Shown in pieces: positions 98 through 30,656 of a stretch of 64,000 nucleotides of DNA. The stretch comes from Streptomyces halstedii. GTDB lineage: Bacteria > Actinomycetota > Actinomycetes > Streptomycetales > Streptomycetaceae. The stretch's first letter is position 1, and the number at the start of each line of letters is the position of its first letter. A program made the translations under genes and the position numbers. The stretch is from contig JOAZ01000035.1 in NCBI GenBank assembly GCA_000720535.1, positions 1 through 64,000 of the forward strand, read 5' to 3'. The notes beneath the pieces are model-generated. The model was not told the origin of the DNA. It saw only the letters and a list, made by a program, of their open reading frames with translations, and made no database searches.

Positions 98-192
98 AGC
101 GGTGGGGCCCTTCGACGTATTGCCCGGTGAGAGCAATGGCGGAGGATACGAGATTCGAACTCGTGAGGGGTTGCCCCCAACACGCTTTCCAA
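98..192. repeat. attL direct repeat (tRNA-Ser 3' fragment)
   Basis: Identical base for base to 30562-30656. It contains the 3' half of tRNA-Ser(GGA) on the minus strand, from the anticodon loop to the encoded CCA, plus about 39 bp beyond the 3' end. To the right of 192 the sequence leaves the tRNA, so this copy is not a functional tRNA gene. It is interpreted as attL. Confidence 0.92.
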
Positions 193-2604: not shown

Positions 2605-2773
2605 TCGGCGTTGTCCCCTCACAGGCGTGAGGAAGTACGGCGGTATCGTCACCCTTTGAGTAAGCCCCCGTAGGTGGATGAGGGGAGCGCCGTTTGCCAG
2701 CCATTGGCTGATCAGCGCCCTTACGCTTCAGCGCCGCCTCCTTGATCCTGCTGTGCCGGACCAAAGGAGGGCC

Positions 2774-3478
2774 ATGGCGGCGGCACGGAAGCGGCGGGTA
2801 TCGGCTGCGCGTAAGCGTCGCCAGCGGCGACTCAAGATCGGCGCCATCGCTGGGGGCGTGAGCGTTGTTGCGCTGGTGGTCTTCTGGAGCGTGATCTGGC
2901 CCTATCTCGTCGGTGCACTTGCTCTCAGTAGCGTCGGCGGTGGCGGGTGGTGGCTGTGGCGCACCGATCGTTTCGTCAGAGGAAGCGATCGGCAGTGGCG
3001 GCATGACGAGGCCGTGAAGGCAGGGCACCGGACGCTCGCTGAGGTCGACGCGATGATGGGGACGGAGTTCGAGGACTTCGTTGCGGAGCTGTGCCGGCGC
3101 GACGGGTGCACCAACGTGCGGAGGGTAGGGGGCTCGCACGATAACGGGGCTGACGTGCTGGGGTGCCTTCCCGATGGGCGGAGCATGGTGATCCAGTGCA
3201 AGCGGTATACGCCCAAGAGCAAGATCCCCAGCCGGGAGATGCGGGACCTGCTCGGAGCGAAGGTGCACTTCAAGGTCGACGTGGCGATCTTCGTGGCCAC
3301 GACGTACTTCAGCGGGCCGGCTGAGGAGTTCGCCACTGAGAACGACATCCTCGCCGTCCACCGTGATCACCTCGGACTCTGGAACAACGGGGCCTCGCTG
3401 CTGTCGCTCGGCGCGGTGAACGGCCTGGGGCAGGGAGACCGGAGGCATCGGGAACGCTGGAAGGAGACGTACGGGTAA
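2774..3478 (+). CDS. Membrane-anchored Mrr-type restriction endonuclease
   Basis: A 234-residue protein. A basic N-terminus is followed by hydrophobic segments (about residues 22-65), then a C-terminal Mrr_cat-like PD-(D/E)xK domain with the expected elements: E100 in TEFEDFV, D127 in NGADVLG, and the Q141-C-K143 triplet. Such proteins are modification-dependent or structure-specific nucleases, here apparently tethered to the membrane. The start is ATG 2774 because AAAGGAGG lies 3-4 nt before it. It follows the NaeI-like gene on the same strand with a 169-bp gap, so the pair could form a nuclease module. Substrate unknown. Confidence 0.8.
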   Translation: MAAARKRRVSAARKRRQRRLKIGAIAGGVSVVALVVFWSVIWPYLVGALALSSVGGGGWWLWRTDRFVRGSDRQWRHDEAVKAGHRTLAEVDAMMGTEFEDFVAELCRRDGCTNVRRVGGSHDNGADVLGCLPDGRSMVIQCKRYTPKSKIPSREMRDLLGAKVHFKVDVAIFVATTYFSGPAEEFATENDILAVHRDHLGLWNNGASLLSLGAVNGLGQGDRRHRERWKETYG

Positions 3479-3518
3479 GAGAGTCTCTCGGCGGACGTAG
3501 TGGCTGGCTTGTGGCTAT

Positions 3519-4133
3519 CTATTGGGTAGGTCGCTGAAGGTCAGGTGCCACTCGTTGATGGGCGGGCAGAAGGCGGAGGTCGGCGAAGTGCCAGGGCGTC
3601 TTCGCGGCGGTGGTGAAGGCGGCGGGTCCTTCTGGGAGGTGGGTGAGGACGCCCAGCAGGAGGGTGTGGGAGACGGCCAGGAGTGGGCCGTGGCGCCCAG
3701 AGGTGTGGTGGAGGAAGGCGGCGCAGTGGCGGGCGCGGGTATGGAGGTCGGTGAGGCTTTCGCCGTCTTCGCAGCGCAGAGAGGGATTGGCGAGGCGGCG
3801 GGCTCGCCAGGCGCGGTAGGCCGGCGGGTAGGTCTCCGCCGTGCGGCCGAGAACGATGCTCGGGGCGCGCCATTCGGCAAGGAGGCCGGAGGCGGCCACG
3901 ATCGGCAGGCCCGAGAGGTGCGAGATGAGGGTGGCGGTCTGACGGGCGCGGGGGATCGGGCTGGTGACGATCGCGGTGACGCCCTCAGGGAGGGGCAGGG
4001 AGCGGCGTACCTGCTCGCGGCCCTCCTGCGTGAGGGCGGCTTCATGCGGGGCGTGGTAGCCGGGGCGGTGACCTTCGTAGGCGCCGTGGCGCATGAGCCA
4101 GATGTCAGCCAAGGATCCAGCCTCCGTCGACAC
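3519..4133 (-). CDS. Histidine phosphatase family protein
   Basis: A 204-residue protein of the phosphoglycerate-mutase-like histidine phosphatase superfamily. The phospho-acceptor RHG motif is at the N-terminus (LMRHGAYEG), an arginine lies in SPIPRARQT, and the second catalytic His is in LLAVSHTLLLG. These enzymes remove phosphate from sugars, nucleotides or other small molecules; the substrate is not predictable. It is the last gene of the minus-strand operon and overlaps the SDR gene by 29 bp (GTG start; an alternative TTG at the SDR stop would shorten the overlap). Confidence 0.82.
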   Translation of the reverse strand: MSTEAGSLADIWLMRHGAYEGHRPGYHAPHEAALTQEGREQVRRSLPLPEGVTAIVTSPIPRARQTATLISHLSGLPIVAASGLLAEWRAPSIVLGRTAETYPPAYRAWRARRLANPSLRCEDGESLTDLHTRARHCAAFLHHTSGRHGPLLAVSHTLLLGVLTHLPEGPAAFTTAAKTPWHFADLRLLPAHQRVAPDLQRPTQ

Positions 4134-4854
4134 GCAGGGTCTGGCCGGTGATGAAGCCGGCGTCGTCGGTTGCGAGGAAGGCGACGGCCGAGGCGATGTC
4201 CTCCGGGCGGCCCCGGCGCGGGACGCACTGGCGGGCGAGCTGCCGGGCGGTCATGGCTTCCGGGTCGTCGACGACGGTGTCCTCAGCGGGGACGCGGATG
4301 GAACCGGGGGCGACACAGTTCACGGTGATGCCGACGGGACCGAGTTCGCGTGCGAGGGCACGGGTGAGTCCTTCGAGGCCGGCCTTGGCACTGATGTAGC
4401 CGGCGAGGTCGTGACGGCCCGCCGTGGCGAGGACTGAGCCGATGGTGATGATCCGGCCCCAGCCGACGGCCGTCATGGCAGGGGTCAGCTCGTGGGCCAG
4501 GAGGTAGTGGCTGGTCAGGTTAGAGGCCAGAGCCTCGTCCCAGTGAGCCGGCGTTGTCTCCGTCCACGTGCGGCGGGGGTAGGCGCCGGCGTTGCTGACC
4601 AGGATGTCGATTGGGCCGAGCTGGTCGTGGGCCTGGTGGCACAGGGCGCGCACGGCCTCGGCGTCTCGGAGGTCGGCTGCCAGGGAGATTGTGGCGCCGC
4701 CACTGCCGGTGATGTGGGCGGTGAGCTCGGCTGCGGCCAGACCGTCGTCGAGGTGCGCGAGGGCGACGGTGGCGCCGTCGGCGGCGAGACGGCGGGCGAT
4801 GGCCGAGCCGAGGCCGCCGGTGGCTCCGCTGACCAGGGCGGTGCGGCCGTTCAT
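4105..4854 (-). CDS. SDR family oxidoreductase
   Basis: About 250 residues with the classical short-chain dehydrogenase layout: Rossmann motif TGGLGSA near the N-terminus, NAG (VSNAGAY), catalytic Ser in IGSV, the YxxxK pair in YISAKAG, and a C-terminal GGW segment. It is probably an NAD(P)H-dependent reductase of a sugar or hydroxy compound; FabG-like sequence alone does not fix the substrate. I chose the ATG at 4854 because it forms an ATGA overlap with the upstream kinase stop, as at other junctions in this operon; an in-frame ATG at 4866 is the alternative. Confidence 0.85.
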   Translation of the reverse strand: MNGRTALVSGATGGLGSAIARRLAADGATVALAHLDDGLAAAELTAHITGSGGATISLAADLRDAEAVRALCHQAHDQLGPIDILVSNAGAYPRRTWTETTPAHWDEALASNLTSHYLLAHELTPAMTAVGWGRIITIGSVLATAGRHDLAGYISAKAGLEGLTRALARELGPVGITVNCVAPGSIRVPAEDTVVDDPEAMTARQLARQCVPRRGRPEDIASAVAFLATDDAGFITGQTLRVDGGWILG

Positions 4855-5987
4855 GGGGCCGGGCATGGCGACTCCAGCGGGCAGAAGTAGGTGGTGGGGT
4901 CGAAGGTGGGGCTCATGGCCTCGGCGAGCCGGGCGAGGAGGACAAGCCGGTCCTCGGGGGCCAGGTCGGCCAGGTTGTAGACGCCGAGGATGCGCGTGGC
5001 GAGGTAGGGGCGGAGCAGGTTCGCCAGGTCCTCGCCGGGCCAGAGACGGTCCGCGACCGGTCGTACGAGTTTGTTCCAGTACGCGGTCACGGCGGCTCGC
5101 CGGGGTGCAGAGAGGTGCGGCGTGTAGTCGATGTGGATGGTGCTGGTGGTGTGGTCGATCGCCGCTCGTCGGATCTCAGGGGTGTTGGCCGGGATGTGGG
5201 TGAAGGCGGCGGGGTGGTCGGCGAAGGCGGTCGGGTTGTACGTGGGTACGAGCCAGCCGCCGAGAGCGGAGGCGTACCAGAGGAAGTTGGCGAACTCGCC
5301 GGGGATGCTGTTCATTCCCGCGGTGTCGTAGTCGAACCAGGCGAGCGGGTGGGCGAGGTTGACGTCGGTGGGGTCGCCTTGGGTGAGGGCCGCCCAGACC
5401 GGCTCTGCCGTGGCGAAGTGCGCGCGCAGCCAACGGAGGGTGGCGGCCCAATCCAGGTGGTGTCGGCGGCCGTTGATCTTCAGGGCGTAGGTGTTGAGGC
5501 GGGATACCGGGATGTCGACGAGGCCGTCGGCGATCAGGAAGTCCTTGCCGGCGTAGTACGCGTCGAGTCGGCCGCCGGGTGCCGCGCGGTCCCAGTACAG
5601 CTTGCGGACGACGTGCGCCGGATCGGCCGGCCATGCCGTTGTGAGGATGACCTCCTGGTACGCGGCCGTGAGCTGGTCCATGTAGGTGTGGAGGTGGCTG
5701 GTCGGCCCGTCTGTGTTGAGGAGGTCGAGCAGAAGTCCCTGGTCGGTGCCGCCGGGCAGGCGTTCGTACGCGAGGAGGTGTCCGCCCGGTACACGCAGGT
5801 GGGTGTGGAGGGCGGGAACGCGGTAGTGCCGGGCCAGGCGGGCATGGCCGCGGATCTCCTCGCGAGCCTCGGCCGGGTTGCGGGTGTACTTCAGGAGTAG
5901 CGAGTGGCCGAAGAGGTCGACCGGGCAGAGCAGGTTGCGGGTGAAGCGCCGCACCGGTCCGACCCGAAAGAGAGGCTGGAAGGTCAT
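4851..5987 (-). CDS. Aminoglycoside-phosphotransferase-like kinase
   Basis: 378 residues related to the APH/choline-kinase-like fold. A Brenner-type catalytic segment appears as QGDPTDVNL (His of the usual HGD replaced by Gln), followed by WFDYDTAG for the metal-binding DFD-like motif. An N-terminal region with HSLLLKYTR and YERLPGG fits the ATP-binding lobe. It probably phosphorylates a small molecule such as a sugar or nucleoside rather than conferring drug resistance. It starts with an ATGA overlap on the glycosyltransferase stop and is therefore translationally coupled. Confidence 0.72.
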   Translation of the reverse strand: MTFQPLFRVGPVRRFTRNLLCPVDLFGHSLLLKYTRNPAEAREEIRGHARLARHYRVPALHTHLRVPGGHLLAYERLPGGTDQGLLLDLLNTDGPTSHLHTYMDQLTAAYQEVILTTAWPADPAHVVRKLYWDRAAPGGRLDAYYAGKDFLIADGLVDIPVSRLNTYALKINGRRHHLDWAATLRWLRAHFATAEPVWAALTQGDPTDVNLAHPLAWFDYDTAGMNSIPGEFANFLWYASALGGWLVPTYNPTAFADHPAAFTHIPANTPEIRRAAIDHTTSTIHIDYTPHLSAPRRAAVTAYWNKLVRPVADRLWPGEDLANLLRPYLATRILGVYNLADLAPEDRLVLLARLAEAMSPTFDPTTYFCPLESPCPAP

Positions 5988-7144
5988 CGCCCCACCTCGT
6001 TGAGTAGTTCGAGGCTGAACTGGGCCAGCATGGCGGGCGGGATGGCGTCCATGTGCACGTCCGTGTCCGGGGCGATGGCGTCGCGGACGGGGCAGAGGTC
6101 GCCCTGGTGCATGCGGTCGGACAGGTTGGTGGCGACGGCGTGGTGGTGCGGCAGGCCGGTGCGCCACTTGCTGTGGCTGTGGCGTGCGTTCAGGCCGATG
6201 ACCGGCGGGCCACCGGCATCCCGGCCGCCGCGCGCCATCGCGGCGAGGTGGGTGAGGCCGGTGTCGTTGCCGACGATCAGGTGGCAGTGCGGGAAGAGGT
6301 CGGCGAGGTGGTCGGCCGGCATCCCGTCGATGTGGAGGGCCTGCACGTGGCGACGGGGAGCCTCCGTCGTGACGCGGAGGCCGCCGCCCGGGTTGCCGCC
6401 GATGAGCAGCAGCCGGGCCTGGGCCTGTTGTGCCTCGGCAATGTGCTCGGCAAGGGCGATGTAGCGCTGGGAGGTGTAGTCCTTGCGCTCCGGCCAACTG
6501 GTGGCGGTGATGGCGGCGAGGGTCACACCGCCCAGCCAGCCCACCGAGCGCAGCTCCTCCACGAGCTTGTTCGGCCCGGTCGCGAGGGTGGGAGCGAACG
6601 GAGCCGTGCCGGGCAGGCGGATGCCGAGGCGACGCTCCAGAGCCAGGTAGTGGCGGGCGGGCAGGTCCGGGTGGGCGCGGCCGTCGCTCGACCAGCACGG
6701 CGGGGCGGCTGGGTCGAGCACCAGGCTCACCGCCGCCTCCGAGCCGTATGCCTCGATGCCCGTACGGTCGCCGATCACGGCCCGCCAGCCGTTGGGAGCG
6801 GTGGCCTGGGGCTGCGTGATCAGCCCAGTGCGGGCGATCAGTCCCGCGTATGGACCCACCGCCCGTACGGCCACGCGTACCGACCGCAGCCGCAGCCAGT
6901 CGAGGACCGCGCGGACCCCCGACAGTGCGAGGAGCGTGTCACCGAGCTTCCCCTCGAAGGCCACGACGACCTCGCCGCACCCGCTCAGGCGGTGGACGAG
7001 CTCGGCGGAGGCGGCCAGCGGGAGCGGTGCGCCGATGGGAACGCTGTCCCGGTCGTACCCGAGCGGGGTGGTGTGGACGGCCCCGGCGGGGATGACCAGG
7101 GAACCGTGGTGGAACCGGATCCCCGCCGGGGCCACAGCTGTCAT
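5984..7144 (-). CDS. Glycosyltransferase family 9-like protein
   Basis: 386 residues with the heptosyltransferase (GT9, GT-B fold) pattern. The N-terminal GKLGDTLLALSGVRAV corresponds to the GDxLLxTP-like acceptor motif. The C-terminal LLLIGGNPGG and HLIVGNDTGLTHLAA correspond to the nucleotide-sugar region with the conserved NDTG-H segment. GT9 enzymes normally build LPS, which Gram-positive Streptomyces lacks, so the acceptor here must be something else. It overlaps both neighbours by 4 bp. The ATG at 7144 sits at the stop of the PRTase gene. Confidence 0.8.
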   Translation of the reverse strand: MTAVAPAGIRFHHGSLVIPAGAVHTTPLGYDRDSVPIGAPLPLAASAELVHRLSGCGEVVVAFEGKLGDTLLALSGVRAVLDWLRLRSVRVAVRAVGPYAGLIARTGLITQPQATAPNGWRAVIGDRTGIEAYGSEAAVSLVLDPAAPPCWSSDGRAHPDLPARHYLALERRLGIRLPGTAPFAPTLATGPNKLVEELRSVGWLGGVTLAAITATSWPERKDYTSQRYIALAEHIAEAQQAQARLLLIGGNPGGGLRVTTEAPRRHVQALHIDGMPADHLADLFPHCHLIVGNDTGLTHLAAMARGGRDAGGPPVIGLNARHSHSKWRTGLPHHHAVATNLSDRMHQGDLCPVRDAIAPDTDVHMDAIPPAMLAQFSLELLNEVGR

Positions 7145-7716
7145 TCCGCGCCCTCGATCGTGGTGAGCGAGACGAGCGGGAGACCGAGGTCGGTGAGCAG
7201 GTCGCGGGCTCCGCGGGTCGTGTCCTCCACCAGGCAGGCCGCCGCCAGCGGGACGGCGCCGACCTCGCGGAGGCGGCGGGTGAGATCGGCCAAGGTCCGG
7301 CCGGTGGTGATCTCGTCGTCCACGATGACGATGCGCTGCCCGGGAGTGATGCCGTACGCGAAGACGTCCGTGCGCATCGCGTGGGGCTCGCTGAAGCGGA
7401 CCGCGCCGTCGAGGGGCAGGTGCAGCTTCCAAGCGATCTTGTACGGGAGCTGAGCGGCGCCGGCGAGGGAGACGGTCGGCAGGATGCCGCCGGCGTCCAG
7501 GCCGAGGAGGAAGTCCACGGAGCCGAGCCCGTCCGGCACCTGCTCCTGGAGCAGACGCCACAGGTCGGCTCCGCTGTTGGCGAGGGTCTCGGGGTGGACC
7601 GGGTGCTCCAGGCCGTCCAGGGAATGGATGACGCGCTCGCGGCGGCTCGTGGCTCCGACGCTGAGCCGTTCGACGATCCGGGCGGTGAAGGACGGCACGG
7701 CGATGGTTTCGGGCAT
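7141..7716 (-). CDS. Phosphoribosyltransferase-like protein
   Basis: 191 residues of the type I PRTase fold. The 13-residue PRPP loop is IVIVDDEITTGRT, preceded by a substrate segment FLLGLDAGGILPT. The family transfers a phosphoribosyl group to a base, or salvages or degrades nucleotides; some members only sense PRPP. The RBS AGGAGCTT precedes the ATG by 5-6 nt. It is followed by the glycosyltransferase with an ATGA overlap. The DUF4254 fusion gene upstream ends 47 bp away. Substrate base unknown. Confidence 0.82.
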   Translation of the reverse strand: MPETIAVPSFTARIVERLSVGATSRRERVIHSLDGLEHPVHPETLANSGADLWRLLQEQVPDGLGSVDFLLGLDAGGILPTVSLAGAAQLPYKIAWKLHLPLDGAVRFSEPHAMRTDVFAYGITPGQRIVIVDDEITTGRTLADLTRRLREVGAVPLAAACLVEDTTRGARDLLTDLGLPLVSLTTIEGAE

Positions 7717-7763
7717 GGCGAAGCTCCTGTCGGACGGAGAACGAGGGAGGGGAGGGAGACTGT

Positions 7764-9563
7764 TCAGGCGGCGAGCTGGGCGGCGTACCAGGTGAGGAGC
7801 TGGTCGACGGCCACGGTGACGGGCTTGAGGACGAGCTCGGCCTCGCCGTCGCGCCAAGCGCTGGAGATCTCGGCCAGGGAGGGTGTCGCGAGGGCCGTCA
7901 GGCCCGGCATGCGGGAGGCTGCGGCGAGGATCCGATCGGGGCCGGACTCCCACTGGTTGTGCTCGCGCAGGAGCAGGCGGCAGGCGAGCACGAGGTGCTT
8001 GTAGAGCTGCCGCAGTGCGGTCGGCCCCGCGTCGGCGCGCAGACGGCGCATGGTCAGGATGACCTGGGGGAGTTCCCGGACAGCGGCGAACGCCAGCTCG
8101 CCTCGGCTGATCGTCGGCAGTTCGAGGCTGGGTGCGGCATGCAGAACAGGGCTGCCCTGCTGGAGCTGGTGGAGGACGAACGCCAGGCGCGGGGTGAGGC
8201 GCCGGGCGGTCAGTTCGCCGGGGGTGACGAGGGTGGGGCCGAGGGAGGCCGCACCGCCGAGGGCGGTCCGGTACTGCTCCAGGGCCTCGTGTACCCGGCC
8301 GATGGCCTCGTGCTCGGCGATCACGAGGAGGTCCAGGTCGGACCAGCCGACGATCCAGCTGCACTCGCCGGGACTGCCGGTCAGTGCGGCGAGCCGTACG
8401 TCGGGGCCGTAGGCCCGCACCGCGTCGGTGAAGTCGGCCGTCGCCGAGGCTATGGCGGCAGGCAGTCCCAGCCCGTACGGAGTGGCCGCGCGCAGCGCCG
8501 TGGATGCTGGCGGGGCGGCGATGCGCCGGAGCCGGGCGCGGAGGGCGGCGATGCTGCCGGTGTTGTCGATGACGTGGTCGGCGAGCGCGGCGACCTGATG
8601 GGCGCCACGGCTCATCTTGATCTCGTCCTTAGCGGCTACGGCCTGGGCCGGAGTGCCGGACCGTTCGACGCGAACGGCGAAGGAGGCGTCCAGGTAGACG
8701 ATCTGGAGTGCGTCGCCCATGAGTCGCTTGAGCTCGGCGATCGAGGCGTCGTCGTGGACGGACTCGATGGTGAACAGCTCCGTGTCGACGTGCGCGTCCG
8801 CGAAACGGTTCAGCTCACCGAGCAGCAGCTCGGCCTGCCGACGGGGAGACAGGGCGTACGGGTCTGCGAGACCCTTGCGATGGGCCGCCTGCCGCAACAG
8901 GAAGCCGATCTTGAAGCGTTGCGCACCGCAGGTGCGCTGGACGAACTCGGCGCTGGTGCTCTTGCCGCACTCGCTCAGTCCACCGAAGGCGAGGACCCGG
9001 CGCAGCCGCCGACTCGGCTTGATCTCTGCGGGGGCGGCGTCGTCCCGGCCGTACAGCTTGAAGCGAGCCGGTACGGGAAGCCGGCGGCGGCCTGCGACGA
9101 CGTCGGAGACCAGCGCGTCGAGGGCGGCGCACAGTTCCTCCCGTTGGCCGTGGAGGGCGGGGACACGTCGTCGGGCCAACTCGTCCCGGGCAGCTGCCCG
9201 TTCGCTGTGCCAGATCCTCAGTGTCAGCACCGAGAGGCGGTCGACGACGGAGGCGAGCGTCTCGGTGTGCAGTGGTGCGTCGGCTCGGCCCGCGTCGGCC
9301 AGCGAACCGAGGACCTCGTCAGCCCGCTCGGCGAGCAAGTTCCGTTCGGCGTTGAGCTGGTCGATCTCCCGCTTGCAGTCGGCGACCTGGGCGGCGGAGA
9401 GTAAGGCGCCACGCACCCGGTCCTCGGTGTCCCACAGGCGCCCGTTGACGGTGTGGAGCCGGGTGATGGTGTCGTCCAGGCGGTTCCGGTCCTTGTCCGG
9501 GAGCGCTGCCACGGTGCGGGACAGCCTGGGTGGTAACACCAGGGGCGGGGAGTTCTGCGTCAT
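7764..9563 (-). CDS. DUF4254 / P-loop kinase / nucleotidyltransferase fusion
   Basis: 599 residues, apparently three domains. Residues about 15-165 are helical with LHTVNGRLWDTEDRVR, the DUF4254 signature. Residues 188-350 are an NMP- or dephospho-CoA-kinase-like P-loop domain with Walker A GGLSECGKST (194-203). Residues about 360-599 begin with a minimal nucleotidyltransferase motif (G396-S397 and SDLDLL 408-413), followed by a helical tail. In Bacteroidetes DUF4254 proteins sit with GT9 heptosyltransferases, and here too a GT9 gene is two genes away. Likely role: prepares or regulates an activated phosphorylated donor. It starts with a 4-bp overlap on the upstream kinase gene. Confidence 0.7.
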   Translation of the reverse strand: MTQNSPPLVLPPRLSRTVAALPDKDRNRLDDTITRLHTVNGRLWDTEDRVRGALLSAAQVADCKREIDQLNAERNLLAERADEVLGSLADAGRADAPLHTETLASVVDRLSVLTLRIWHSERAAARDELARRRVPALHGQREELCAALDALVSDVVAGRRRLPVPARFKLYGRDDAAPAEIKPSRRLRRVLAFGGLSECGKSTSAEFVQRTCGAQRFKIGFLLRQAAHRKGLADPYALSPRRQAELLLGELNRFADAHVDTELFTIESVHDDASIAELKRLMGDALQIVYLDASFAVRVERSGTPAQAVAAKDEIKMSRGAHQVAALADHVIDNTGSIAALRARLRRIAAPPASTALRAATPYGLGLPAAIASATADFTDAVRAYGPDVRLAALTGSPGECSWIVGWSDLDLLVIAEHEAIGRVHEALEQYRTALGGAASLGPTLVTPGELTARRLTPRLAFVLHQLQQGSPVLHAAPSLELPTISRGELAFAAVRELPQVILTMRRLRADAGPTALRQLYKHLVLACRLLLREHNQWESGPDRILAAASRMPGLTALATPSLAEISSAWRDGEAELVLKPVTVAVDQLLTWYAAQLAA

Positions 9564-10207
9564 CGGGGAATCCCGTCGGTGAGTCGGCTGAGGCCGAGGC
9601 GATCGAGCACGTCGCTGTGCACGGCGTCCAAGGAGCGGTTCTCGCAGTCGACGACGGCGGTGAACGCACCGTGGTCGACCTGGTGGAGCAGGACCGCGTG
9701 CAGCGTCTTCTGGTAGTCCGGGTAGATCCCGGTCCAGGGGCGGCCCTCGCGGGCGCTGGTGATGGCGTAGCTGCGTTCGGCGTCGGATGACGGGAGCAGG
9801 AGGATGGACGTCTCGGGTGTGGCGGCCCGCGGACCGGCGATTCCCGTCACGGTCCTGAACGCCTCGCCGACGGTCAGCCCGTCCTTGACCACGCAGGTCG
9901 CAGCGGCCACGGCGAGAAGCATGGGCAGGCCCCGGTCCAGCAGACCCGTTCGCCCGGTCTCGCGTGCGGCGGCCCGCTTGGCATGACCGGCGAGCAGCAT
10001 CTCGGTCAGCTCGACGGTCGTGGACGTCTCGAACCACCACCGGGCGTAGTCGCCGGCGGCCACCCGTGCCCAGGGCTCGGGATCGTGCTCGTGGACCGCG
10101 CCCAGCGGCTGGAAGGCGTTCCACCGTTCGGCCAGTCGCACCAAGTGGGTCGTCTTGCCCACGTTGTCAGGGCCGTTGAGGCTGACGAAGTCCGGGGCTC
10201 GCGTCAT
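9560..10207 (-). CDS. Thymidylate-kinase-like P-loop protein
   Basis: 215 residues with Walker A GPDNVGKTT near the N-terminus and a DRG motif (LLDRGLPML), as in dTMP kinases; a lid-like basic region follows (SAREGRPW). Sequence around the substrate site is unlike housekeeping Tmk, so it may phosphorylate another nucleotide or sugar. It lies 3 bp downstream of the Nudix gene and overlaps the fusion gene by 4 bp, placing it early in the operon. Confidence 0.72.
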   Translation of the reverse strand: MTRAPDFVSLNGPDNVGKTTHLVRLAERWNAFQPLGAVHEHDPEPWARVAAGDYARWWFETSTTVELTEMLLAGHAKRAAARETGRTGLLDRGLPMLLAVAAATCVVKDGLTVGEAFRTVTGIAGPRAATPETSILLLPSSDAERSYAITSAREGRPWTGIYPDYQKTLHAVLLHQVDHGAFTAVVDCENRSLDAVHSDVLDRLGLSRLTDGIPR

Positions 10208-10210
10208 CGC

Positions 10211-10678
10211 TCACGCCTCGCGGATCGGGGTGATGAGGACGGAGGTGATCGCGTACGTGTTGGCGGCGATGAACTCGGCGAGCTCCGGGGGCATCAGGTT
10301 CAGTTCGCGGACCGCCTCGCCGGTGAACGGGACGCGTACCACCTCGTACTCACCCCGTTCCGGCTTCGCGAACTCCGTTCCTGTACGCGCGGCCAGGTCC
10401 ATCGACTCCAGGCGCGCGGCGAAGATGTGCTGGACGCCGACGCCGCCCTCCAACTGGTCGGTGATCAGGTGGACCAGTTCGGCGCGCGCCAGCTTGCCGC
10501 CGAGCTCCTCGAACACCTCGCGGTGCAGAGCCGACTCGATGGTCGCGTCGTCCGCCTCGACCCCTCCGCCGACCGTCACCCAGTACGGCTCCCTGCCCGG
10601 CTTGGTGCGCTTGATCAGGACCAGTTCGTCGCCGTCGAGGAGGATGGCGCGGGCGTTGCGCTTGACGATGTCGGTCAT
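10211..10678 (-). CDS. Nudix hydrolase, first gene of the minus operon
   Basis: 155 residues with a Nudix box GGVEADDATIESALHREV followed by FEELGG. The REVFEELG core is intact, but the Glu that usually follows GX5 is Ala, with Asp residues next to it. Nudix enzymes hydrolyse nucleoside diphosphates linked to another group. The start is ATG 10678 with AAGGAG about 8 nt upstream. It is the promoter-proximal gene of the eight-gene minus operon, divergent from the XRE regulator. Confidence 0.82.
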   Translation of the reverse strand: MTDIVKRNARAILLDGDELVLIKRTKPGREPYWVTVGGGVEADDATIESALHREVFEELGGKLARAELVHLITDQLEGGVGVQHIFAARLESMDLAARTGTEFAKPERGEYEVVRVPFTGEAVRELNLMPPELAEFIAANTYAITSVLITPIREA

Positions 10679-10887
10679 GCCGGTGCTCCTTCTGGTGGTG
10701 GTACAGGAGAGAACGGTGGAGAGGCCGCCTGGCAGTGGCCGGCCCCGACGCGGTGGATTCAGCATGGAGCAAGACGGTTACGAAGTGTGATGTACGGGCG
10801 CTGCAGCAATGCCGCAGCACTGCTGAACAAGGCTGGCTACGCTGGTCGTTCGGTCGTTCCACCGGGTGACGGACAGGGGGTGCCACG
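10679..10887. promoter_or_regulatory. Divergent promoter region of the metabolic cluster
   Basis: A 209-bp intergenic stretch separates the minus operon (Nudix first) from the plus-strand XRE regulator. It must hold the promoters of both arms, and the adjacent XRE protein is the obvious candidate regulator. I see no strong palindrome; the -10/-35 elements cannot be assigned confidently. Confidence 0.45.
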
Positions 10888-12021
10888 GTGGTCACGGTGC
10901 AGAGATGGTCCGGCCGGGAAGCCCGGCTGCTACGCGACGCCCTGCGCATGAGCCTGCGGGACTTCGCCGCGTACCTGGGGGTCAGCGACCGCACCGTGTC
11001 GAACTGGGAGGCAGGCGGCGCCGGCTACCAGCCTCGCGCCGAGTCTCAGGGCATTCTCGACACCGCGCTCGGTCGCGCACCCGACGACGCGAGAACCCGG
11101 TTCGCGGAAGCGCTGGGAACGAGTGACGTGGCTGCACCTGTGCCAGGGCGGATAGAAGTCGACTCCCACAAGTTCCTGCCGGTCTTCATCGGTGTCGAGC
11201 ACGCCGGCCGGCTCCGGGAGCATCTGACACCGAGCGAGGGCGCTCAGTGGCTGGAGTCCTCCTCGGCCCGACTGGACCACCCCGAGGCGCAGAGCTGTGT
11301 CCTGCACGTCTTCGCATGCGGGGTAGCCGTCTTCCACCTTGTCCAGCCGCACGAACCTGCCGCGCTGACCGACCTGGCCGTCTGGCGCTACCGCTCCTAC
11401 GCGTCCGACCTTCCCTGGGCCCGGGACAAGATCCGCGAACTCCTCGAAGGGGACCACACCGGGGCCCCCAACCCCGAATACGTCCTTTCCCTCTACTGCC
11501 TCACCTCCGGCCCGTGGTCCGGAGACGCTTACGACACCGCGCTGCGCCTGCTCTCCACTCCCTCGGTTCTCGTCGATCGCGGGGCACCGGGTGGTCCCGC
11601 GCCCCTGGCCTGCACGGTCGAGGAGTCGCTTCTTGCCACCGGCTTCGACCACCCGGACATCGTTTCCTTCGGTGTACGGGGAGTGTCCACCGCCTACGCC
11701 GGCTGGTCCGGCGTCGCCTACGCCTCCCACTCCAGCGAGCGCAGCCTCACCACCGACGAGCTGGTCGCCTGCGAGCTGACCGTCCAGGCCCTGTGGTGTT
11801 TCACCCGCCACATCCAGCAGATGGTCGAGGACGGCCAGGACCCCTCCATGCCGGAGCGGTACGGCTGGCGATTCCTGCGCGCCGCCGCCTCCCGGCTCAC
11901 CACCGCCCGTGCTCAGGAGACCGCGCAACACGTCCTGATGCGGGAGGCCATCATGAAGACCAGCGGATTGGCCGAACGGCTGCGCACCGCGCAGGAGGCT
12001 CTGCGCGAGAGCGCCGGCTGA
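10888..12021 (+). CDS. XRE-family regulator with large C-terminal domain
   Basis: 377 residues. The N-terminal HTH (residues about 8-60) has the typical SLRDFAAYLGVSDRTVSNWE helix-turn-helix. The remainder (about 300 residues) resembles the long helical C-terminal region of Streptomyces XRE regulators, with no named domain. The start is GTG with a GGGGG-rich RBS. It heads the plus-strand arm and stands back to back with the eight-gene minus operon, so it is the likely controller of both arms. Confidence 0.8.
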   Translation: MVTVQRWSGREARLLRDALRMSLRDFAAYLGVSDRTVSNWEAGGAGYQPRAESQGILDTALGRAPDDARTRFAEALGTSDVAAPVPGRIEVDSHKFLPVFIGVEHAGRLREHLTPSEGAQWLESSSARLDHPEAQSCVLHVFACGVAVFHLVQPHEPAALTDLAVWRYRSYASDLPWARDKIRELLEGDHTGAPNPEYVLSLYCLTSGPWSGDAYDTALRLLSTPSVLVDRGAPGGPAPLACTVEESLLATGFDHPDIVSFGVRGVSTAYAGWSGVAYASHSSERSLTTDELVACELTVQALWCFTRHIQQMVEDGQDPSMPERYGWRFLRAAASRLTTARAQETAQHVLMREAIMKTSGLAERLRTAQEALRESAG

Positions 12022-12043
12022 GAACGGGCAGGAGTGAGAGCCG

Positions 12044-12613
12044 ATGGACATCAGCAGCGCCGCACTGGTCGTGATCGACATGCAGAACGGCTTCGTGAAC
12101 CACCACAGTCGCCACGTCGTGCCCACAGTCGCCGACCTTGTCGCCAGATGGTCCGCCGCCGGGCGCCCTGTCGTCTTCACCCGGTACTTCAACTATCCCG
12201 ACAGCCCTTACGAGCGCTTCTTCCAATGGAGCCGGCTCCAGGAACCACCCGAGACCGACATCGTTCCCGAGCTCGCCGAGGCGGCGCGCCACGCGCACGC
12301 AGGCGTCGACAAGACCGGATACACGCTCTTCACACCCGAGGCCACGGAACTGATTCGCCGGGCCGGCTGGACCGACCTGGTCTTCTGCGGAATCGCCACC
12401 GAGAGTTGCGTTCTGAAGTCCGCCGCCGACGCCTTCGAGCACGGATACGCACCCTGGATCGTCACGGACGCCTGCGCCAGCGACGCCGGCCCGGCCGTCC
12501 ACGACGCCGGTCTGCTCGTAGCTCGGCGCCTGATCGGAACAGGCCAACTCGTCAACGCCGAGCATGTGATGGGGCAACTCGATACGCGTGTGGCCGACCC
12601 GGTGCTGGAATAG
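12044..12613 (+). CDS. Isochorismatase-like cysteine hydrolase
   Basis: 189 residues with the isochorismatase-superfamily triad pattern: Asp in VIDMQNGF near the N-terminus, Lys in DKTGYTLF, and Cys in GIATESCVLKSA. Members hydrolyse nicotinamide, isochorismate, N-carbamoyl compounds and similar amides or enol ethers. It lies 22 bp after the regulator gene and 4 bp before the FAD oxidoreductase, in an operon with them. Specific substrate unknown. Confidence 0.83.
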   Translation: MDISSAALVVIDMQNGFVNHHSRHVVPTVADLVARWSAAGRPVVFTRYFNYPDSPYERFFQWSRLQEPPETDIVPELAEAARHAHAGVDKTGYTLFTPEATELIRRAGWTDLVFCGIATESCVLKSAADAFEHGYAPWIVTDACASDAGPAVHDAGLLVARRLIGTGQLVNAEHVMGQLDTRVADPVLE

Positions 12614-12617
12614 CCTC

Positions 12618-13532
12618 ATGGCCGACACACCGCTCGACACCGACCTGATCATCATCGGCGGAGGGCCGGCCGGCTGCGCCGCCGCCCGTATGGCCGCCGG
12701 CGTGGGCATGCGCTCGGTCCTGGTCGAGCCGGACCGGCTGTGCCGCAATCTCTACCGGATCCCGGCCCTGAACAACGTCCTCGGCGGCCACACCAACGGC
12801 CCCGACCTGGCCGACGCCATCGTGGCGGAGCTGAAGGGCACCGAGCTGTGCCGCCTCGAACTCGGCAGGCGTGTCACTGAACTCCGGGCCGATGACGACC
12901 GGGTGACCGTCACGGTCGACACCGGTGCGCGTCTCACGGCTCCGTACGCTGTCGTCGCCACCGGCGTCGGCCCCCTCCAGCCCCACGACGTCACCTGGAT
13001 CACCGCCCCCAGCGGCCGTGTCCTGCCCCCGCTCTGGGAGGCCGAAGCCGACGACGCTCAGGGGCGCACCCTCCTCGTCCTGGGCGGCGACCGCCCGATC
13101 GGCACGTTCCTGCGCGCCCACCCGACCACAGACACCCGCCTGCTCGTGGTGTACCCGGCAGCCGACGCGTACAAGATCGAGGAGATCCGGGACGATCCCC
13201 GCGTCGCCCTCGTTCCCGTCGAACACCTGACGCTGCAGGCCGAAGAGGGCACCCCGGTGTCGGCGGAGGCAGTGGGCCAGGACGGCACGCGGCGGACGAT
13301 CACAGCGGATTCGGCCTACCTCAGCATCGGCAACGCCCCGACCGCCCCGCCCGGCGATCTGACCCGGGGTTCGGACGGATACTGCCCGCCGACCGACCAG
13401 CACCCCCGCGTCATCGTGGCCGGCGACCTCCGCTCCGCCCGCTTCCAACGGATCATGACCGCCCTGGGATCAGGCAGCGAGGCCGCACTGCACGCCTACT
13501 ACGCGGCCAGGGACGTGCCCACCAAGGGCTGA
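12618..13532 (+). CDS. FAD-dependent oxidoreductase (thioredoxin-reductase-like fold)
   Basis: 304 residues with an N-terminal FAD Rossmann motif GGGPAGCAAARMA and a C-terminal FAD segment VIVAGDLRSARF, matching the thioredoxin-reductase-like two-dinucleotide fold. The redox CxxC of true thioredoxin reductases is absent (PSGRVLPPLWEAEADD), so it more likely oxidises or reduces a small molecule. The usual second GxGxxG segment is replaced by VLGGDRPIG. The start is ATG 12618, 5 bp after the isochorismatase stop. Confidence 0.78.
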   Translation: MADTPLDTDLIIIGGGPAGCAAARMAAGVGMRSVLVEPDRLCRNLYRIPALNNVLGGHTNGPDLADAIVAELKGTELCRLELGRRVTELRADDDRVTVTVDTGARLTAPYAVVATGVGPLQPHDVTWITAPSGRVLPPLWEAEADDAQGRTLLVLGGDRPIGTFLRAHPTTDTRLLVVYPAADAYKIEEIRDDPRVALVPVEHLTLQAEEGTPVSAEAVGQDGTRRTITADSAYLSIGNAPTAPPGDLTRGSDGYCPPTDQHPRVIVAGDLRSARFQRIMTALGSGSEAALHAYYAARDVPTKG

Positions 13533-13584
13533 GACCACAGCGGTGGGATACGCGCGACGACCTACGCACTCGGGAAGGAATCTC

Positions 13585-13989
13585 ATGACCACTGAGGTCA
13601 AGCCGGCGGTCGCCGCCGCCGTCGTCGTGCAGGACGGGCGGGTGCTGCTTGTGCGACGGCGCGTGTCGGAGGGCGCGCTTTCGTGGCAGTTCCCGGCAGG
13701 GAAGATCGAATCCGGCGAGAGTGCGGGGGAGGCGGCGGCGCGCGAGGCCCGGGAGGAGACCGGGCTGCTGGTGACTCCCCAGATCGTGCTCGGGCAACGG
13801 GTTCACCCCATGACCGGCTGGGAGATCCACTACATCGCGTGTAGACGCTCTGGCGGCGAAGCGGGCATCGCGAGTCCGGACGAGGTAGCAGGTCTGGCTT
13901 GGGTCGCGCACGGCGAGATCCCGCACTACGTGCCCTCCGGACTGTTCAAGCCGGTACGGGACTATCTCGATGAGGCTCTACTCTCGTGA
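13585..13989 (+). CDS. Nudix hydrolase (MutT-like)
   Basis: 134 residues with a complete Nudix box: GKIESGESAGEAAAREAR followed by EETGLL. The start is ATG 13585 with GGGAAGGAA 4-5 nt upstream, so the longer in-frame extension to 13543 is unlikely. It follows the FAD oxidoreductase by 52 bp as the last gene of the plus arm. It may clean up or activate a nucleotide intermediate; small MutT-like genes are also common passengers in actinomycete elements. Confidence 0.85.
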   Translation: MTTEVKPAVAAAVVVQDGRVLLVRRRVSEGALSWQFPAGKIESGESAGEAAAREAREETGLLVTPQIVLGQRVHPMTGWEIHYIACRRSGGEAGIASPDEVAGLAWVAHGEIPHYVPSGLFKPVRDYLDEALLS

Positions 13990-14099
13990 TCCGGGCCAAG
14001 CCGGACACCGTCCCTTCGGGGTATATCCAGCTCGGGATCGCTGAGGCCAGCGCATTCCGTGCCGGCACCCAAGGGGCTGAGGCGTGTCAAGCCTGGTGA

Positions 14100-16353: not shown

Positions 16354-18006
16354 TCAGCGCGTACGTCGCTGCTGGTCTGTGCGGGCGGGTCCGTAGGGGG
16401 CCGACTGAGGTGCTGCCGGGCCACGGCTGGTGGTCCGTTGGTTCAGGTTGGCGATACGGTGCAGCCGCCAGGCGAGAACCTCGGTGACGCTCATGGCGGT
16501 GTCCAGGTCTCGCCTTTCGGCGGCTTGGGTGAGGAGGGCGGCGGAGTCGAGGCCGACGCTGCTGGCCTGGGCGAGGGTGGCTGCCAGGGCGGGCCAGCCG
16601 GTCGCGGTGAGGATCTTCTCGGCCTGCTCGGGGAGGGCTCGGCGCACGGCGGCCGCTTGTTGGTGGTGAAGCCATTCGGGCAGTTGGGTTCCTCGCTGGT
16701 GGATCATGGCCAGCGGCCCGGCTGCAGCGGCCTGGTAAGCGGTGCGGAGGTGCTCGGCGGCCTGTGATGCGGCCTCGGCCTGTTGGGTGTGGCCGCGAGT
16801 ACGGTGCCAGTGCTGCGCGGCCACGGCGGCCAAGAGGACGGCGTCGAGAAGGACTGCGAGGAGGACTCCGTCCTTCGGGGCGGGTGCACGGAGGATCGAT
16901 TTCACTGCTCGGCGGGTGGTGTGGGCCTGTCGGTGCTCTGCGCGGATTCGGGAGCGACTTGCCCGCTCGAACGCGGTTGCTGCTTGCAGGAGATCGGACC
17001 GCAGGCTCGCGGGCGCGGTGAGGGGCAGGACGTCGAGGGCTTCGGCGAGGACGGTGATGTGGGCCTGCCCGGCTTCGGTGCCACCGTTGCTGAGGTGGTC
17101 GGGTGTCCGATCGATGGCGACGGTGAGGCGCCGCCAAGCTGTGGAGCCAGTGGGTTCCCTCGGTGTCGTCTCGGTGGCCGTGAGGCGTTCGGCGATCCTG
17201 GGATAGGAGAGGTCCGGGGCGAGGGTGGAGCCGGAGAACCACACCGGTTGGCCTTGGGCGTTTGTGTCGCCGTCGAGGGCGAGCTTGTAGCCGCGGACGT
17301 CCCCGGACGGGAAGTACTGGACGTCGATGAGGGCTCCGGCACCTTCGACGAGCCGGAAGAACTCCTCGGTGTCCGTGGCAGCTGAGAGCGCCGTGCGGGC
17401 GACGGTACGAAGGCGCTCACGTGAGGTTCGGGTGTTCCCCGCGCGGCGGGCTTTCTCCTGCTCGGCGCGGGTGGGGCGCTTGGCGGCGGTGCGGTCGCCC
17501 CGTTGGACCTGTCGGAGCCCGTACTCCTTCTCGATCGCTTCGAGTTCCTTGTCGGCGCGCAGGAAGTCGTTCCAGTTGCGGGGCGGACGGAGGTCACCTC
17601 GTACCTTGGTGGCGACGATGTGGATGTGGTCGTCGGCGTGGCGGACGGCGACCCAGCGGCAGGCGTCGGGATCACCGGCGGGTGCGATGCCGGTGGCGTC
17701 GAGGACGCGGCGGGCGATGGTTGCCCACTCGTCGTCGGACAGGTGGCGGTCCTCGGGGGCGGAGCGGATCGAGCAGTGCCAGACGTGGTTCTCCGGCGCC
17801 TTGTGGTCGGCCTGCTTGACCCTCAGGTCGAGGACGGTGGCGAGCTGGGCGAGTGTCGCGTCTGGGTCGCGGCCGGGGTCGGGGGCGAAACCGTCGAACG
17901 AGGCCACGAGGTGGGGGTCGGTGTGTTCGTTGGCGCGGCCGGGACCGTAGAGGTAGTTCAGGACGCCCCGGGTCTTGTGCCCCGGCTTGACGATGTTCGC
18001 GATCAA
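16354..18006 (-). CDS. MOB-type relaxase
   Basis: 550 residues. The N-terminal relaxase/mobilization nuclease domain has the three-histidine metal site RHADDHIHIVAT (H123, H127, H129) and a likely N-terminal catalytic Tyr (NYLYG, residues 17-21). Such proteins nick oriT and lead single-strand transfer. A hydrophobic stretch near residues 375-395 is unusual for a soluble relaxase. Translation apparently starts at a TTG directly following the mobC stop codon, so the two are coupled. It defines this element as mobilizable. Confidence 0.88.
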   Translation of the reverse strand: MIANIVKPGHKTRGVLNYLYGPGRANEHTDPHLVASFDGFAPDPGRDPDATLAQLATVLDLRVKQADHKAPENHVWHCSIRSAPEDRHLSDDEWATIARRVLDATGIAPAGDPDACRWVAVRHADDHIHIVATKVRGDLRPPRNWNDFLRADKELEAIEKEYGLRQVQRGDRTAAKRPTRAEQEKARRAGNTRTSRERLRTVARTALSAATDTEEFFRLVEGAGALIDVQYFPSGDVRGYKLALDGDTNAQGQPVWFSGSTLAPDLSYPRIAERLTATETTPREPTGSTAWRRLTVAIDRTPDHLSNGGTEAGQAHITVLAEALDVLPLTAPASLRSDLLQAATAFERASRSRIRAEHRQAHTTRRAVKSILRAPAPKDGVLLAVLLDAVLLAAVAAQHWHRTRGHTQQAEAASQAAEHLRTAYQAAAAGPLAMIHQRGTQLPEWLHHQQAAAVRRALPEQAEKILTATGWPALAATLAQASSVGLDSAALLTQAAERRDLDTAMSVTEVLAWRLHRIANLNQRTTSRGPAAPQSAPYGPARTDQQRRTR

Positions 18007-18630
18007 CTAGGCCGCCTGGTGCTTTGTGGCCGCCGCGTCGGCGGCGGTGTCGACCGCGGTGGCCGCCCGCTTGACCGTGACCAGGACCCGTCCGGCCTCC
18101 GCGAGCACGGCAGCGTCAACCGGGTGGGTATGACCACCGGAGTTGAGGCGGTGGGCAACCTGGTTCACGTTCGTACCGATCTTGGCAACCTGCGCGCGCA
18201 AAGCGGCGAGCTCGTCGATCAGGTCATCGGTTGCGGTCCGATTGCCAGGCAGGACGAAGTCGTTGTCCAGGTGAGCCATGACGATCGCACCGACCAGGTG
18301 TGCACCGGCCAGACCTAGCCGACGGGCTTCGGCCAGGATCGCTTCCTTCTCGTCAACGCTGTAGCGGACATCGACACGCTCCTTGCGCTGCATGTCCTGG
18401 CGGGCGCGACGGTGGGCGACACGACGCAGCGCGGCCTCGTCGGCGGCACGCCCGCCTGCTGTCCCCGGTGCGCCCTCGCGCCGGGGGCCCGTCTCCGCCA
18501 CCCCCGGGGCGGAGGCTTCTGCGTTGGACCGGCCCTTGGACGGTCCAACGCCATACCTTGCTCCGCCCGGGGCTGGGTGGGTGGTCGACTGAAGCTGGGG
18601 CGTGGTGGGTTCGTGAAGGGGGTGGGGCAT
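18007..18630 (-). CDS. MobC-like relaxosome protein
   Basis: 207 residues. The Pro/Gly-rich N-terminal third has low complexity. The rest matches MobC-type mobilization proteins, with a ribbon-helix-helix-like start (RVDVRYSVDEKEAILAEAR) and the C-terminal AQVAKIGTNVNQVAHRLN segment typical of the family. It helps the relaxase bind and melt oriT. A perfect RBS AAGGAG precedes the ATG. It is upstream of and adjacent to the relaxase, with the DUF2637 gene 36 bp before it. Confidence 0.85.
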   Translation of the reverse strand: MPHPLHEPTTPQLQSTTHPAPGGARYGVGPSKGRSNAEASAPGVAETGPRREGAPGTAGGRAADEAALRRVAHRRARQDMQRKERVDVRYSVDEKEAILAEARRLGLAGAHLVGAIVMAHLDNDFVLPGNRTATDDLIDELAALRAQVAKIGTNVNQVAHRLNSGGHTHPVDAAVLAEAGRVLVTVKRAATAVDTAADAAATKHQAA

Positions 18631-22751: not shown

Positions 22752-23048
22752 ATGCCGCAGCCCGGCCTGCCCATTTCCCAGATAGCCCAGCTTTTGGATG
22801 TCCCCGAAGACGCCCTGCGTACTCTGATGGCCGAGCGCCGCCCCAGTGGTGACACGACTCTCGTCGCTCTCACCGTCACCGAGGCCGCCCGTCGAATCGG
22901 CATCGGCCGTACCAAGCTCTACGAGTACGTCTCCTCCGGTGAGATCGCCTCCGTCAAGATCGGTAGCCTGCGCCGCATCCCAGCAGAAGCGGTGAACGAC
23001 TTCCTGGCCCGCCGGCTGTCGGCGACCGATTTCGGGGCCGCCGCGTGA
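22752..23048 (+). CDS. Excisionase / MerR-like DNA-binding protein
   Basis: 98 residues. The C-terminal half is a winged HTH of the excisionase type (LTVTEAARRIGIGRTKLYEY, then GEIASVKIGSLRRIP). It directs the integrase toward excision. The start ATG has GAGGAG about 8 nt upstream. Its stop overlaps the integrase GTG (GTGA) by 4 bp, the classic xis-int coupling. Confidence 0.88.
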   Translation: MPQPGLPISQIAQLLDVPEDALRTLMAERRPSGDTTLVALTVTEAARRIGIGRTKLYEYVSSGEIASVKIGSLRRIPAEAVNDFLARRLSATDFGAAA

Positions 23049-30540: not shown

Positions 30541-30582
30541 ACGTCGAAGGGCCCCACCGCAAGCGGTGGGGCCCTTCGACGT
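30541..30582 (-). terminator. Long perfect hairpin after tRNA-Ser
   Basis: A 20-bp stem (30541-30560 with 30563-30582) has a 2-nt loop and lies directly after the 3' end of the minus-strand tRNA-Ser. It would terminate tRNA transcription. The right arm lies inside the 95-bp repeat while the left arm belongs to the element. Confidence 0.7.
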
Positions 30583-30656
30583 ATTGCCCGGTGAGAGCAA
30601 TGGCGGAGGATACGAGATTCGAACTCGTGAGGGGTTGCCCCCAACACGCTTTCCAA
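30562..30656. repeat. attR direct repeat (in tRNA-Ser)
   Basis: Identical to 98-192. Here the repeat continues into the intact 5' half of the tRNA gene, so this end preserves a functional tRNA-Ser and is the chromosomal junction. Confidence 0.92.

Follow-up and report, generated by a model that had tools for sequence, protein, structure and literature searches.

Several described systems come close to the locus considered here. The synthesis of tubercidin uses a phosphoribosyltransferase (PRT) and a Nudix enzyme, O-ribosylation of the butirosin type pairs a PRT with a phosphatase, and viperin systems rely on CMPK2-type kinases. Here, we analyze a gene cassette near one end of a 64,000-nucleotide stretch of Streptomyces halstedii DNA (the beginning of contig JOAZ01000035.1, hereafter the window), in which kinases, a nucleotidyltransferase, a PRT, a glycosyltransferase, a phosphatase, and Nudix hydrolases are encoded side by side. 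With moderate confidence we propose that it is a self-contained mobile biosynthetic cassette yielding a nucleoside- or aminoglycoside-like small molecule, phosphorylated or nucleotidylated and decorated with ribose and a sugar, which is kept intracellular. The enzyme classes point to small-molecule synthesis, and by kind the locus would be a mobile biosynthetic cassette, the product class being beyond what sequence can fix.

The resemblance to each described system covers part of the gene set. With tubercidin synthesis the cassette has a PRT and a Nudix enzyme in common. For butirosin, the likeness lies in a phosphoribosyl pyrophosphate (PRPP) transferase paired with a phosphatase, which would install ribose on a small molecule, whereas the 2-deoxystreptamine enzymes are absent from the Pfam matches of the cassette (no homology comparison was made). 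Nucleoside antibiotic clusters in general are approached through the PRPP-type PRT, the type that joins base and ribose, though this gene is absent from the 30 short-form loci described below; their scaffold-building enzymes and exporter are not among the Pfam matches of the cassette, and we know of no such kinase-nucleotidyltransferase core from these clusters. ADP-heptose donors can feed nucleoside antibiotics (PMC10948575). By analogy, a donor of this type is expected of the cassette glycosyltransferase GT9, which would liken it to the heptose compounds septacidin and spicamycin. For viperin/CMPK2 immunity, whose gene neighborhood is treated in PMC10058120, the shared feature is a TMK-family-like nucleotide kinase in a defense-rich setting, whereas the radical SAM enzyme is not among the Pfam matches of the cassette, which has many sugar-type enzymes. 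An earlier note on this DNA had stated that no known pathway matches; likewise, we found no described pathway with this gene set in the literature, within limited coverage of subscription journals and preprints.

All twelve genes that the earlier note had assigned to this cassette are present at 3519–13989 (Table 1). The minus-strand operon is transcribed in the order NUD1 (a Nudix hydrolase), TMK-like kinase, DUF4254 fusion (DUF4254, P-loop kinase, and pol-β-type nucleotidyltransferase), PRT, GT9, phosphotransferase-like protein, short-chain dehydrogenase/reductase (SDR), and HP (a phosphatase); the regulator XRE, the hydrolase ISO, the FAD oxidoreductase, and the second Nudix hydrolase NUD2 lie divergently. 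Overlaps of 4–29 bp, claimed for most minus-strand genes, exist at five of the seven junctions (4, 4, 4, 16, and 29 bp), whereas 47 bp separate PRT from the DUF4254 fusion and 3 bp separate TMK from NUD1.

The cassette recurs far beyond the window. GTDB species genomes were scanned with an alignment of the kinase-nucleotidyltransferase, seeded by two short peptide patterns; the scan, which was not exhaustive, confirmed 110 relatives, and the best 80 of these, corresponding to 79 distinct loci, were kept (locus counts exclude the window). The loci are nearly all actinobacterial and come from Streptomyces, Actinacidiphila, Kitasatospora, Nocardiopsis, Glycomyces, Actinomadura, Kribbella, Nonomuraea, Sphaerimonospora, Prauserella, Amycolatopsis, Saccharomonospora, Saccharopolyspora, a Pseudonocardiaceae bacterium, and metagenome-assembled genomes (MAGs), one of them labelled Bacillota. 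The kinase-nucleotidyltransferase gene, itself the search query and present in 78 of the 79, adjoins the same partners: the phosphotransferase-like protein in 75 loci, NUD1 in 73, SDR in 71, GT9 in 48, PRT as a separate gene in 47 (in L089 the gene caller merged it with GT9), HP in 40, and XRE, ISO, and FAD in 32 each. The co-occurrence on which the earlier note had made its proposal depend is thus found in 79 loci, in support of its view that the genes form one coupled set.

Among 295 Streptomyces genomes, a protein search found matches to the fusion protein in 33, which we classified from match coordinates and gene maps of 20 fetched regions. The eight-gene long operon occurs in 10 of the 295 (split by frameshifts in G224, without XRE, ISO, and FAD in G025), and 14 have a kinase-nucleotidyltransferase match without DUF4254 (8 of the 14 mapped, among which G168 is unusually arranged and has an additional TMK gene); G187 carries a decayed long form, and the remaining matches are two lone weak fused relatives, five DUF4254 proteins only, and a doubtful one. 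Lone fused TMK-kinase-nucleotidyltransferase genes that have lost the second P-loop were seen in two Streptomyces (L060, 8460–10298; L061, 9305–11140), the former in a ribosomal-protein region with L23 and EF-G genes nearby; these proteins are perhaps repurposed, non-catalytic relatives. A phage origin of the cassette was considered and rejected: searches of viral contigs with the alignments of the kinase-nucleotidyltransferase and of the phosphotransferase-like protein gave 34 and 43 pattern matches, respectively, of which none could be confirmed as a relative, and phage records held no relative of the fusion protein. Plasmids gave partial matches only (7 records, then 2 records), one being a remnant near transposases and one unannotated. 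As a separate observation, a Bradyrhizobium japonicum plasmid (L039, 3334–18552) carries PEP-mutase-family, aconitase-like, isocitrate-dehydrogenase-like, nucleotidyltransferase, phosphoribosyltransferase, and PRPP synthase genes together with a relative of the P-loop kinase of the cassette; these genes may represent a phosphonate-nucleotide pathway, so far undescribed, that is carried by a conjugative plasmid.

The borders of the cassette are sharp. When the window is compared with the 32 Streptomycetaceae loci, homology begins at 3500–3650 in 21 and stops at 13500–13600 in 21; in 8 of the 32 it reaches 13970–14223, that is, through NUD2 or a NUD2 remnant, and the other loci begin at 2697–3421 or at 3719 and beyond, in some cases because of a contig end or greater divergence. 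Therefore, the common unit comprises 11 genes and the 3′ NUD2, whose family occurs in 6 of these 32 loci as well as in the window, is optional: the earlier count of twelve is correct for the window but not for the unit. Moreover, pairs of other hosts share long blocks in which homology stops close to where the cassette ends. Prauserella endophytica and an Amycolatopsis have 10,762 bp in common (97.1%); for Prauserella muralis and an actinomycetote MAG the shared stretch is 7,839 bp (92.6%); and Nocardiopsis alba and a Glycomyces have 11,073 bp in common (88.7%), with weaker homology (75%) beyond one side. The last block includes a GluRS-like gene convergent with the cassette (L093, 15381–16790; L096, 15427–16794), which could be a spare target for self-protection; the family tRNA-synt_1c has two Pfam matches among the flank genes scanned. 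These flanks (148 nearest genes picked, 135 scanned; the 13 left out comprise five of more than 1,100 residues and eight shorter ones) are very diverse, the commonest Pfam families appearing in 5 of the 135, as expected of a moving block. On this sequence evidence, the cassette has been transferred as one block between soil actinobacteria. It is also under purifying selection: ratios of nonsynonymous to synonymous substitution rates (dN/dS) against L064, L071, L074, and L079 are 0.12–0.33 for the 11 genes (0.20–0.27 for HP), whereas NUD2 gives 0.21 against L071 and 1.07 against L079, whose gene is not a NUD2 orthologue.

The loci fall into two forms. The short form consists of a core in which the TMK-like kinase is fused to the kinase-nucleotidyltransferase (a kinase-kinase-nucleotidyltransferase), together with the phosphotransferase-like protein, SDR, and Nudix; the long form adds DUF4254, PRT, and GT9 together, usually with the phosphatase (HP in 40 of 48). 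Of the 79 loci, 48 have all three additions (47 by automatic count, and L068, in which a frameshift splits the DUF4254 gene), 30 have none of them, and L099 is decayed. In a midpoint-rooted tree of the kinase-nucleotidyltransferase (79 rows including the window), one branch with support of 96/75 separates the 49 long rows from the 30 short ones. The linkage gains weight because the DUF4254/PRT/GT9 set was retained while the architecture changed: in the Streptomyces long form DUF4254 is fused and TMK separate, whereas the Pseudonocardiaceae type encodes DUF4254 separately, has TMK joined to the kinase-nucleotidyltransferase, and carries NUD1 at the other end. Further genes, called by Pfam, are lineage-specific. 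Streptomycetaceae have ISO and FAD; some loci of the Nocardiopsis type, 4 in number, have a gene of a TauD dioxygenase family; and the Pseudonocardiaceae type has a TylF-type methyltransferase family in 6 loci, most of those of the type, and a family of Prim-Pol genes in 4.

Few genomes of the phylum have DUF4254 (above the cut-off in 4 of 296), and its partnership with GT9 appears to find independent support outside the cassette, in a DUF4254-GT9 gene pair in a Streptomyces (L219), in a row of DUF4254, PLP (pyridoxal phosphate) decarboxylase-like, GT9, APH, and GT4 genes in another (L217, 4950–10251), and in the arrangement GT9-[DUF4254-GT2]-GT9 on a Burkholderia plasmid. The L217 row itself is possibly another small glycoside pathway with DUF4254.

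In each of the following protein families, most members keep the motif intact (counted across the collected loci). The P-loop and the GS...DxD motif are each found in 77 of 78 kinase-nucleotidyltransferases; Pfam NTP_transf_2 recognizes the homologue in L101 but not the window protein. Y..[AS]K occurs in 69 of 70 SDR members, DTGxxH in 46/46 GT9, VDDExTTG in 46 of 48 PRT, ATE[SG]C with its cysteine in 33/33 ISO, and RHG in 32 of 40 HP members. The PRT profile matches APRT, OPRT, and XPRT structures, and the GT9 profile weakly matches heptosyltransferase structures (E 0.0034). For the TMK-like kinase, with a P-loop in 40 of 41 members, hhalign gives a probability of 84% (E 7.7e-6) against 19 thymidylate kinase stretches and 0.3% for an APH control, which makes the TMK label the better supported one when set beside that of APH. 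In an NCBIfam scan of 10 cassette proteins, none of the models listed reached its cut-off (25 of 237 models listed for SDR); the closest for HP, alpha-ribazole phosphatase, scored 43 bits, far below its cut-off of 163. A chromosomal NUD1 paralogue was uninformative as to function, its neighbors resembling, by eye, genes for a membrane transporter and for an enzyme of the cystathionine-gamma-lyase type.

A predicted operator links the two transcription units. Three 11-bp direct repeats are conserved across an alignment of 30 NUD1–XRE intergenic regions, and the pattern is found in the window and, of the 32 loci with XRE, in 26 (the exact pattern is lacking in L065, L077, L078, L080, L081, and L083), compared with 0 of the 47 other loci. 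A slightly stricter pattern matches once in the window, where shuffling predicts 0.01 matches, and once in the whole own genome (7.74 Mb) with up to two mismatches, the reversed pattern giving none. This suggests that XRE binds the repeat and acts on this cassette alone. A different regulator family, by eye an HTH-TPR protein, accompanies 19 of the 30 short-form loci as well as L090 and L124; in 20 of these 21 cases its gene lies upstream in divergent orientation. No riboswitch was detected: Rfam at gathering thresholds returned only tRNA in 1–31000.

From this gene set we infer every chemical step set out here, as well as the product, its intracellular retention, and the role of the cassette. 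The activated glycosylated nucleotide or sugar phosphate that the earlier note had suggested would likewise be a deduction from the classes of the enzymes. The core (TMK-like, P-loop kinase-nucleotidyltransferase, phosphotransferase-like, SDR, and Nudix) would build a scaffold, oxidize or reduce it, phosphorylate and nucleotidylate it, and trim it. In the long form, the PRT would place 5-phosphoribose from PRPP on this scaffold, whereupon HP would remove the phosphate. Alpha-ribazole phosphatase acts after phosphoribosyl transfer in cobalamin synthesis, and the distant resemblance of HP to this enzyme, far below the cut-off, is the analogy behind the proposed order. GT9 enzymes take ADP-heptose-type donors; GT9 and the DUF4254 domain would then attach a sugar. 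Finally, lineage-specific tailoring would complete the product, by ISO and FAD in Streptomycetaceae, by TauD in some of the Nocardiopsis type, and by TylF in most of the Pseudonocardiaceae type. Both operons would be switched by the divergent XRE via the single triple-repeat operator.

Several observations weigh against a self-contained biosynthetic cassette. Most antibiotic clusters carry exporter or resistance genes and committed scaffold enzymes; here, no exporter or self-resistance gene was matched by Pfam within the conserved borders, which suggests that the product is retained in the cell or else released through transporters of the host, and no scaffold-committing enzyme is among the Pfam matches of the twelve genes (one being without a match, TMK with a weak one). 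None of the enzymes has a known substrate, and strict motifs are missing from some members, the REx.EE.G pattern of NUD1 being present in just 45 of 74. The phosphotransferase-like protein, which the earlier note had called an APH-like kinase, has the QGDPTxxN motif in 73 of 76 members, and for this reason we keep the name; in 22 members scanned, Pfam gave just two chance-level matches to unrelated families, neither NCBIfam nor a PDB profile search returned a match, and hhalign against 21 genuine APH stretches gave a probability of 2–3%, so that membership in the APH family (aminoglycoside phosphotransferases) is unsupported and the former label was stronger than its evidence. Moreover, the 48/30 split represents at most a few events and should not be counted as 78 independent ones. 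The tree tool also warned that the joining of eight Pseudonocardiaceae-type long rows to the other 41 may be a long-branch artefact, which leaves a single origin of the long form not firm. Lastly, the DUF4254-GT9 partnership is no universal rule: DUF4254 stands without a GT9-like gene nearby (by eye) in three regions of two other actinobacterial genomes. Likewise, no GT9 is annotated within 10 kb of DUF4254 on a Legionella plasmid.

Table 1. Positions in the window of the cassette genes, the operator-like repeat, and the principal features of the carrier element.
Feature	Positions	Strand	Evidence and remarks
HP, histidine-phosphatase-superfamily phosphatase	3519..4133	-	Pfam His_Phos_1 2.4e-19; alternative start 4112
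SDR, short-chain dehydrogenase/reductase	4105..4866	-	Pfam adh_short_C2 8.3e-59
Phosphotransferase-like protein ("APH-like")	4851..5987	-	QGDPTxxN motif only
GT9, glycosyltransferase family 9	5984..7144	-	Pfam Glyco_transf_9 3.2e-9
PRT, PRPP-type phosphoribosyltransferase	7141..7716	-	Pfam Pribosyltran 4.1e-8
Fusion, DUF4254 – P-loop kinase – pol-β-type nucleotidyltransferase, 599 aa	7764..9563	-	Pfam DUF4254 1.5e-34; motifs
TMK-like kinase	9560..10207	-	Profile-profile comparison only; Pfam match weak
NUD1, Nudix hydrolase, first gene of minus-strand operon	10211..10678	-	Pfam NUDIX 3.6e-13
Operator-like triple direct repeat, 11-bp period	10800..10828	-	Between divergent NUD1 and XRE
XRE, helix-turn-helix (HTH) regulator, divergent	10888..12021	+	Pfam HTH_3 2.5e-6
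ISO, isochorismatase-like hydrolase	12044..12613	+	Pfam 1.9e-34
FAD oxidoreductase, thioredoxin-reductase-like	12618..13532	+	Pfam Pyr_redox_2 2.8e-11; GTG 12588 possible start
NUD2, second Nudix hydrolase, optional	13585..13989	+	Pfam NUDIX 1e-20
Attachment-site copy, outer end	98..192	+	95 bp, 100% identical to 30562–30656
MobA/VirD2-type relaxase	16354..18006	-	Pfam Relaxase 3.6e-9
MobC-like mobilization protein	18007..18630	-	Pfam MobC 4.9e-8
Tyrosine integrase	23045..24811	+	Pfam Phage_integrase 3.8e-17
Attachment-site copy	30562..30656	+	Covers 3′ part of tRNA-Ser(GGA) and 39 bp beyond

The carrier is an element of about 30.5 kb at tRNA-Ser(GGA), which by eye adjoins a dnaX-like gene, and it is bounded by identical direct repeats (95/95 bp). 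With these attachment repeats and the integrase identified, the earlier statement that the set is carried on a mobile element is borne out. Attachment repeats at a tRNA gene, integrase, relaxase, MobC, and cargo liken the carrier to integrative and mobilizable elements and make it a candidate member of that class; this likeness concerns the carrier only and is silent on the chemistry of the cassette. No FtsK/Tra or type IV secretion system match was obtained among the element genes scanned, a 446-residue gene at 18667–20007 and some small genes being without a family. Relatives of the relaxase lie inside the fetched flank in 15 of the 79 loci, and matches to the attachment region of the window occur near the cassette in L062, L063, L066, L072, L073, L100, and L140. 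A third attachment-site copy (G000, 195586–195681, L211) and an integrase-like gene were observed near the end of contig 10 of the same assembly, which suggests that this tRNA-Ser holds a further element in tandem, located between contig 10 and contig 35 (window 1–192). Further cargo comprises a DUF3800 gene between cassette and relaxase (14275–15585); genes of the type of a cyclic-oligonucleotide-based antiphage signaling system (CBASS) at 24867–27660, with a cyclase (PADLOC 2.3e-147) and an E2 protein (1.5e-31), the two genes on either side of these possibly encoding membrane effectors; an XhoI-type restriction enzyme with an Eco57I-like N6 methylase at 27687–30094, beside the attachment site; a restriction enzyme of the NaeI type at 817–2604, extended N-terminally by about 300 residues, with no methylase-sized gene called from there to the element end at 98; and an Mrr-like nuclease gene.

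Because the cassette shares its element with the CBASS cyclase and E2, the NaeI- and XhoI-type enzymes, and the Mrr-like gene, an intracellular chemical defense has to be weighed: on phage infection, NMP-kinase-like enzymes of the cassette would make a modified nucleotide, either a chain terminator or an alarm molecule. XRE control, the missing exporter match, the common core of kinases and nucleotidyltransferase, and the relaxase relatives near the cassette are in its favor, and we regard it as possible, if doubtful. Both Nudix proteins also match the PADLOC candidate model PDC-S07 (NUD2 6.3e-16, NUD1 1.2e-5; 12/12 proteins scanned), but what this candidate model detects here is just the fold common to Nudix proteins, and NUD2 is an optional gene; such a fold match does not separate the readings. 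The other PADLOC matches are weak and partial (PDC-M05A 6.5e-4 for the nucleotidyltransferase, a mad1-like HTH 1.7e-4, JetB 0.0012 for HP), and among the 25 of 57 matching PADLOC models listed for the flanks none matched more than 3 of the 135 genes, a count without a random control. The lack of a radical SAM enzyme among the Pfam matches speaks against this reading, and the tailoring by GT9 and TylF resembles natural-product chemistry. A more specific version, a new class of chemical immunity, is rather speculative: a mobile, XRE-switched pathway would produce an intracellular glycosylated or nucleotidylated nucleotide analogue, to which the long form would add ribose and a sugar. That this analogue acts as a poison for phage polymerases or as an alarm molecule, with the DUF4254-PRT-GT9 module making up the long form, is an equally tentative suggestion.

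Two other accounts fit less well than a nucleotide analogue made for defense. Phosphotransferase, nucleotidyltransferase, and glycosyltransferase reactions are the classic drug-modifying chemistries; with such genes in a regulated, mobile cassette, an incoming antibiotic might be inactivated by phosphorylation, nucleotidylation, and glycosylation after induction through XRE as sensor. We consider such detoxification unlikely: eleven genes, including PRT, phosphatase, SDR, and Nudix, far exceed the needs of inactivation, the phosphotransferase-like protein is not recognized as APH, and none of the resistance models listed in the NCBIfam scan reached its cut-off, the SDR-type TmpR scoring 165 bits (cut-off 325) and two beta-lactamase matches to GT9 being at chance level. 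It is similarly improbable that the cassette salvages or recycles damaged nucleotides and sugar phosphates and makes no new product: salvage pathways typically contain Nudix, phosphatase, PRT, and kinase enzymes, but the sparse, mobile distribution in Streptomyces, with the long operon and short-form-like matches in 10 and 14 of 295 genomes, as well as GT9 and lineage-specific tailoring are ill suited to housekeeping. Mobile islands often gather unrelated genes, but a chance neighborhood is rejected by the set and order conserved over 79 loci, the sharp borders, purifying selection, and a private operator.

If the cassette is biosynthetic as proposed, it would constitute a compact and conserved pathway that includes a phosphotransferase-like family unseen by Pfam and PDB sequence searches and in which DUF4254 is linked to GT9. 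Its product would come from bacteria that have been mined for natural products for decades. Owing to the sharp homology ends, the whole pathway could be moved on about 10 kb into a laboratory Streptomyces, where the metabolite may be sought directly.

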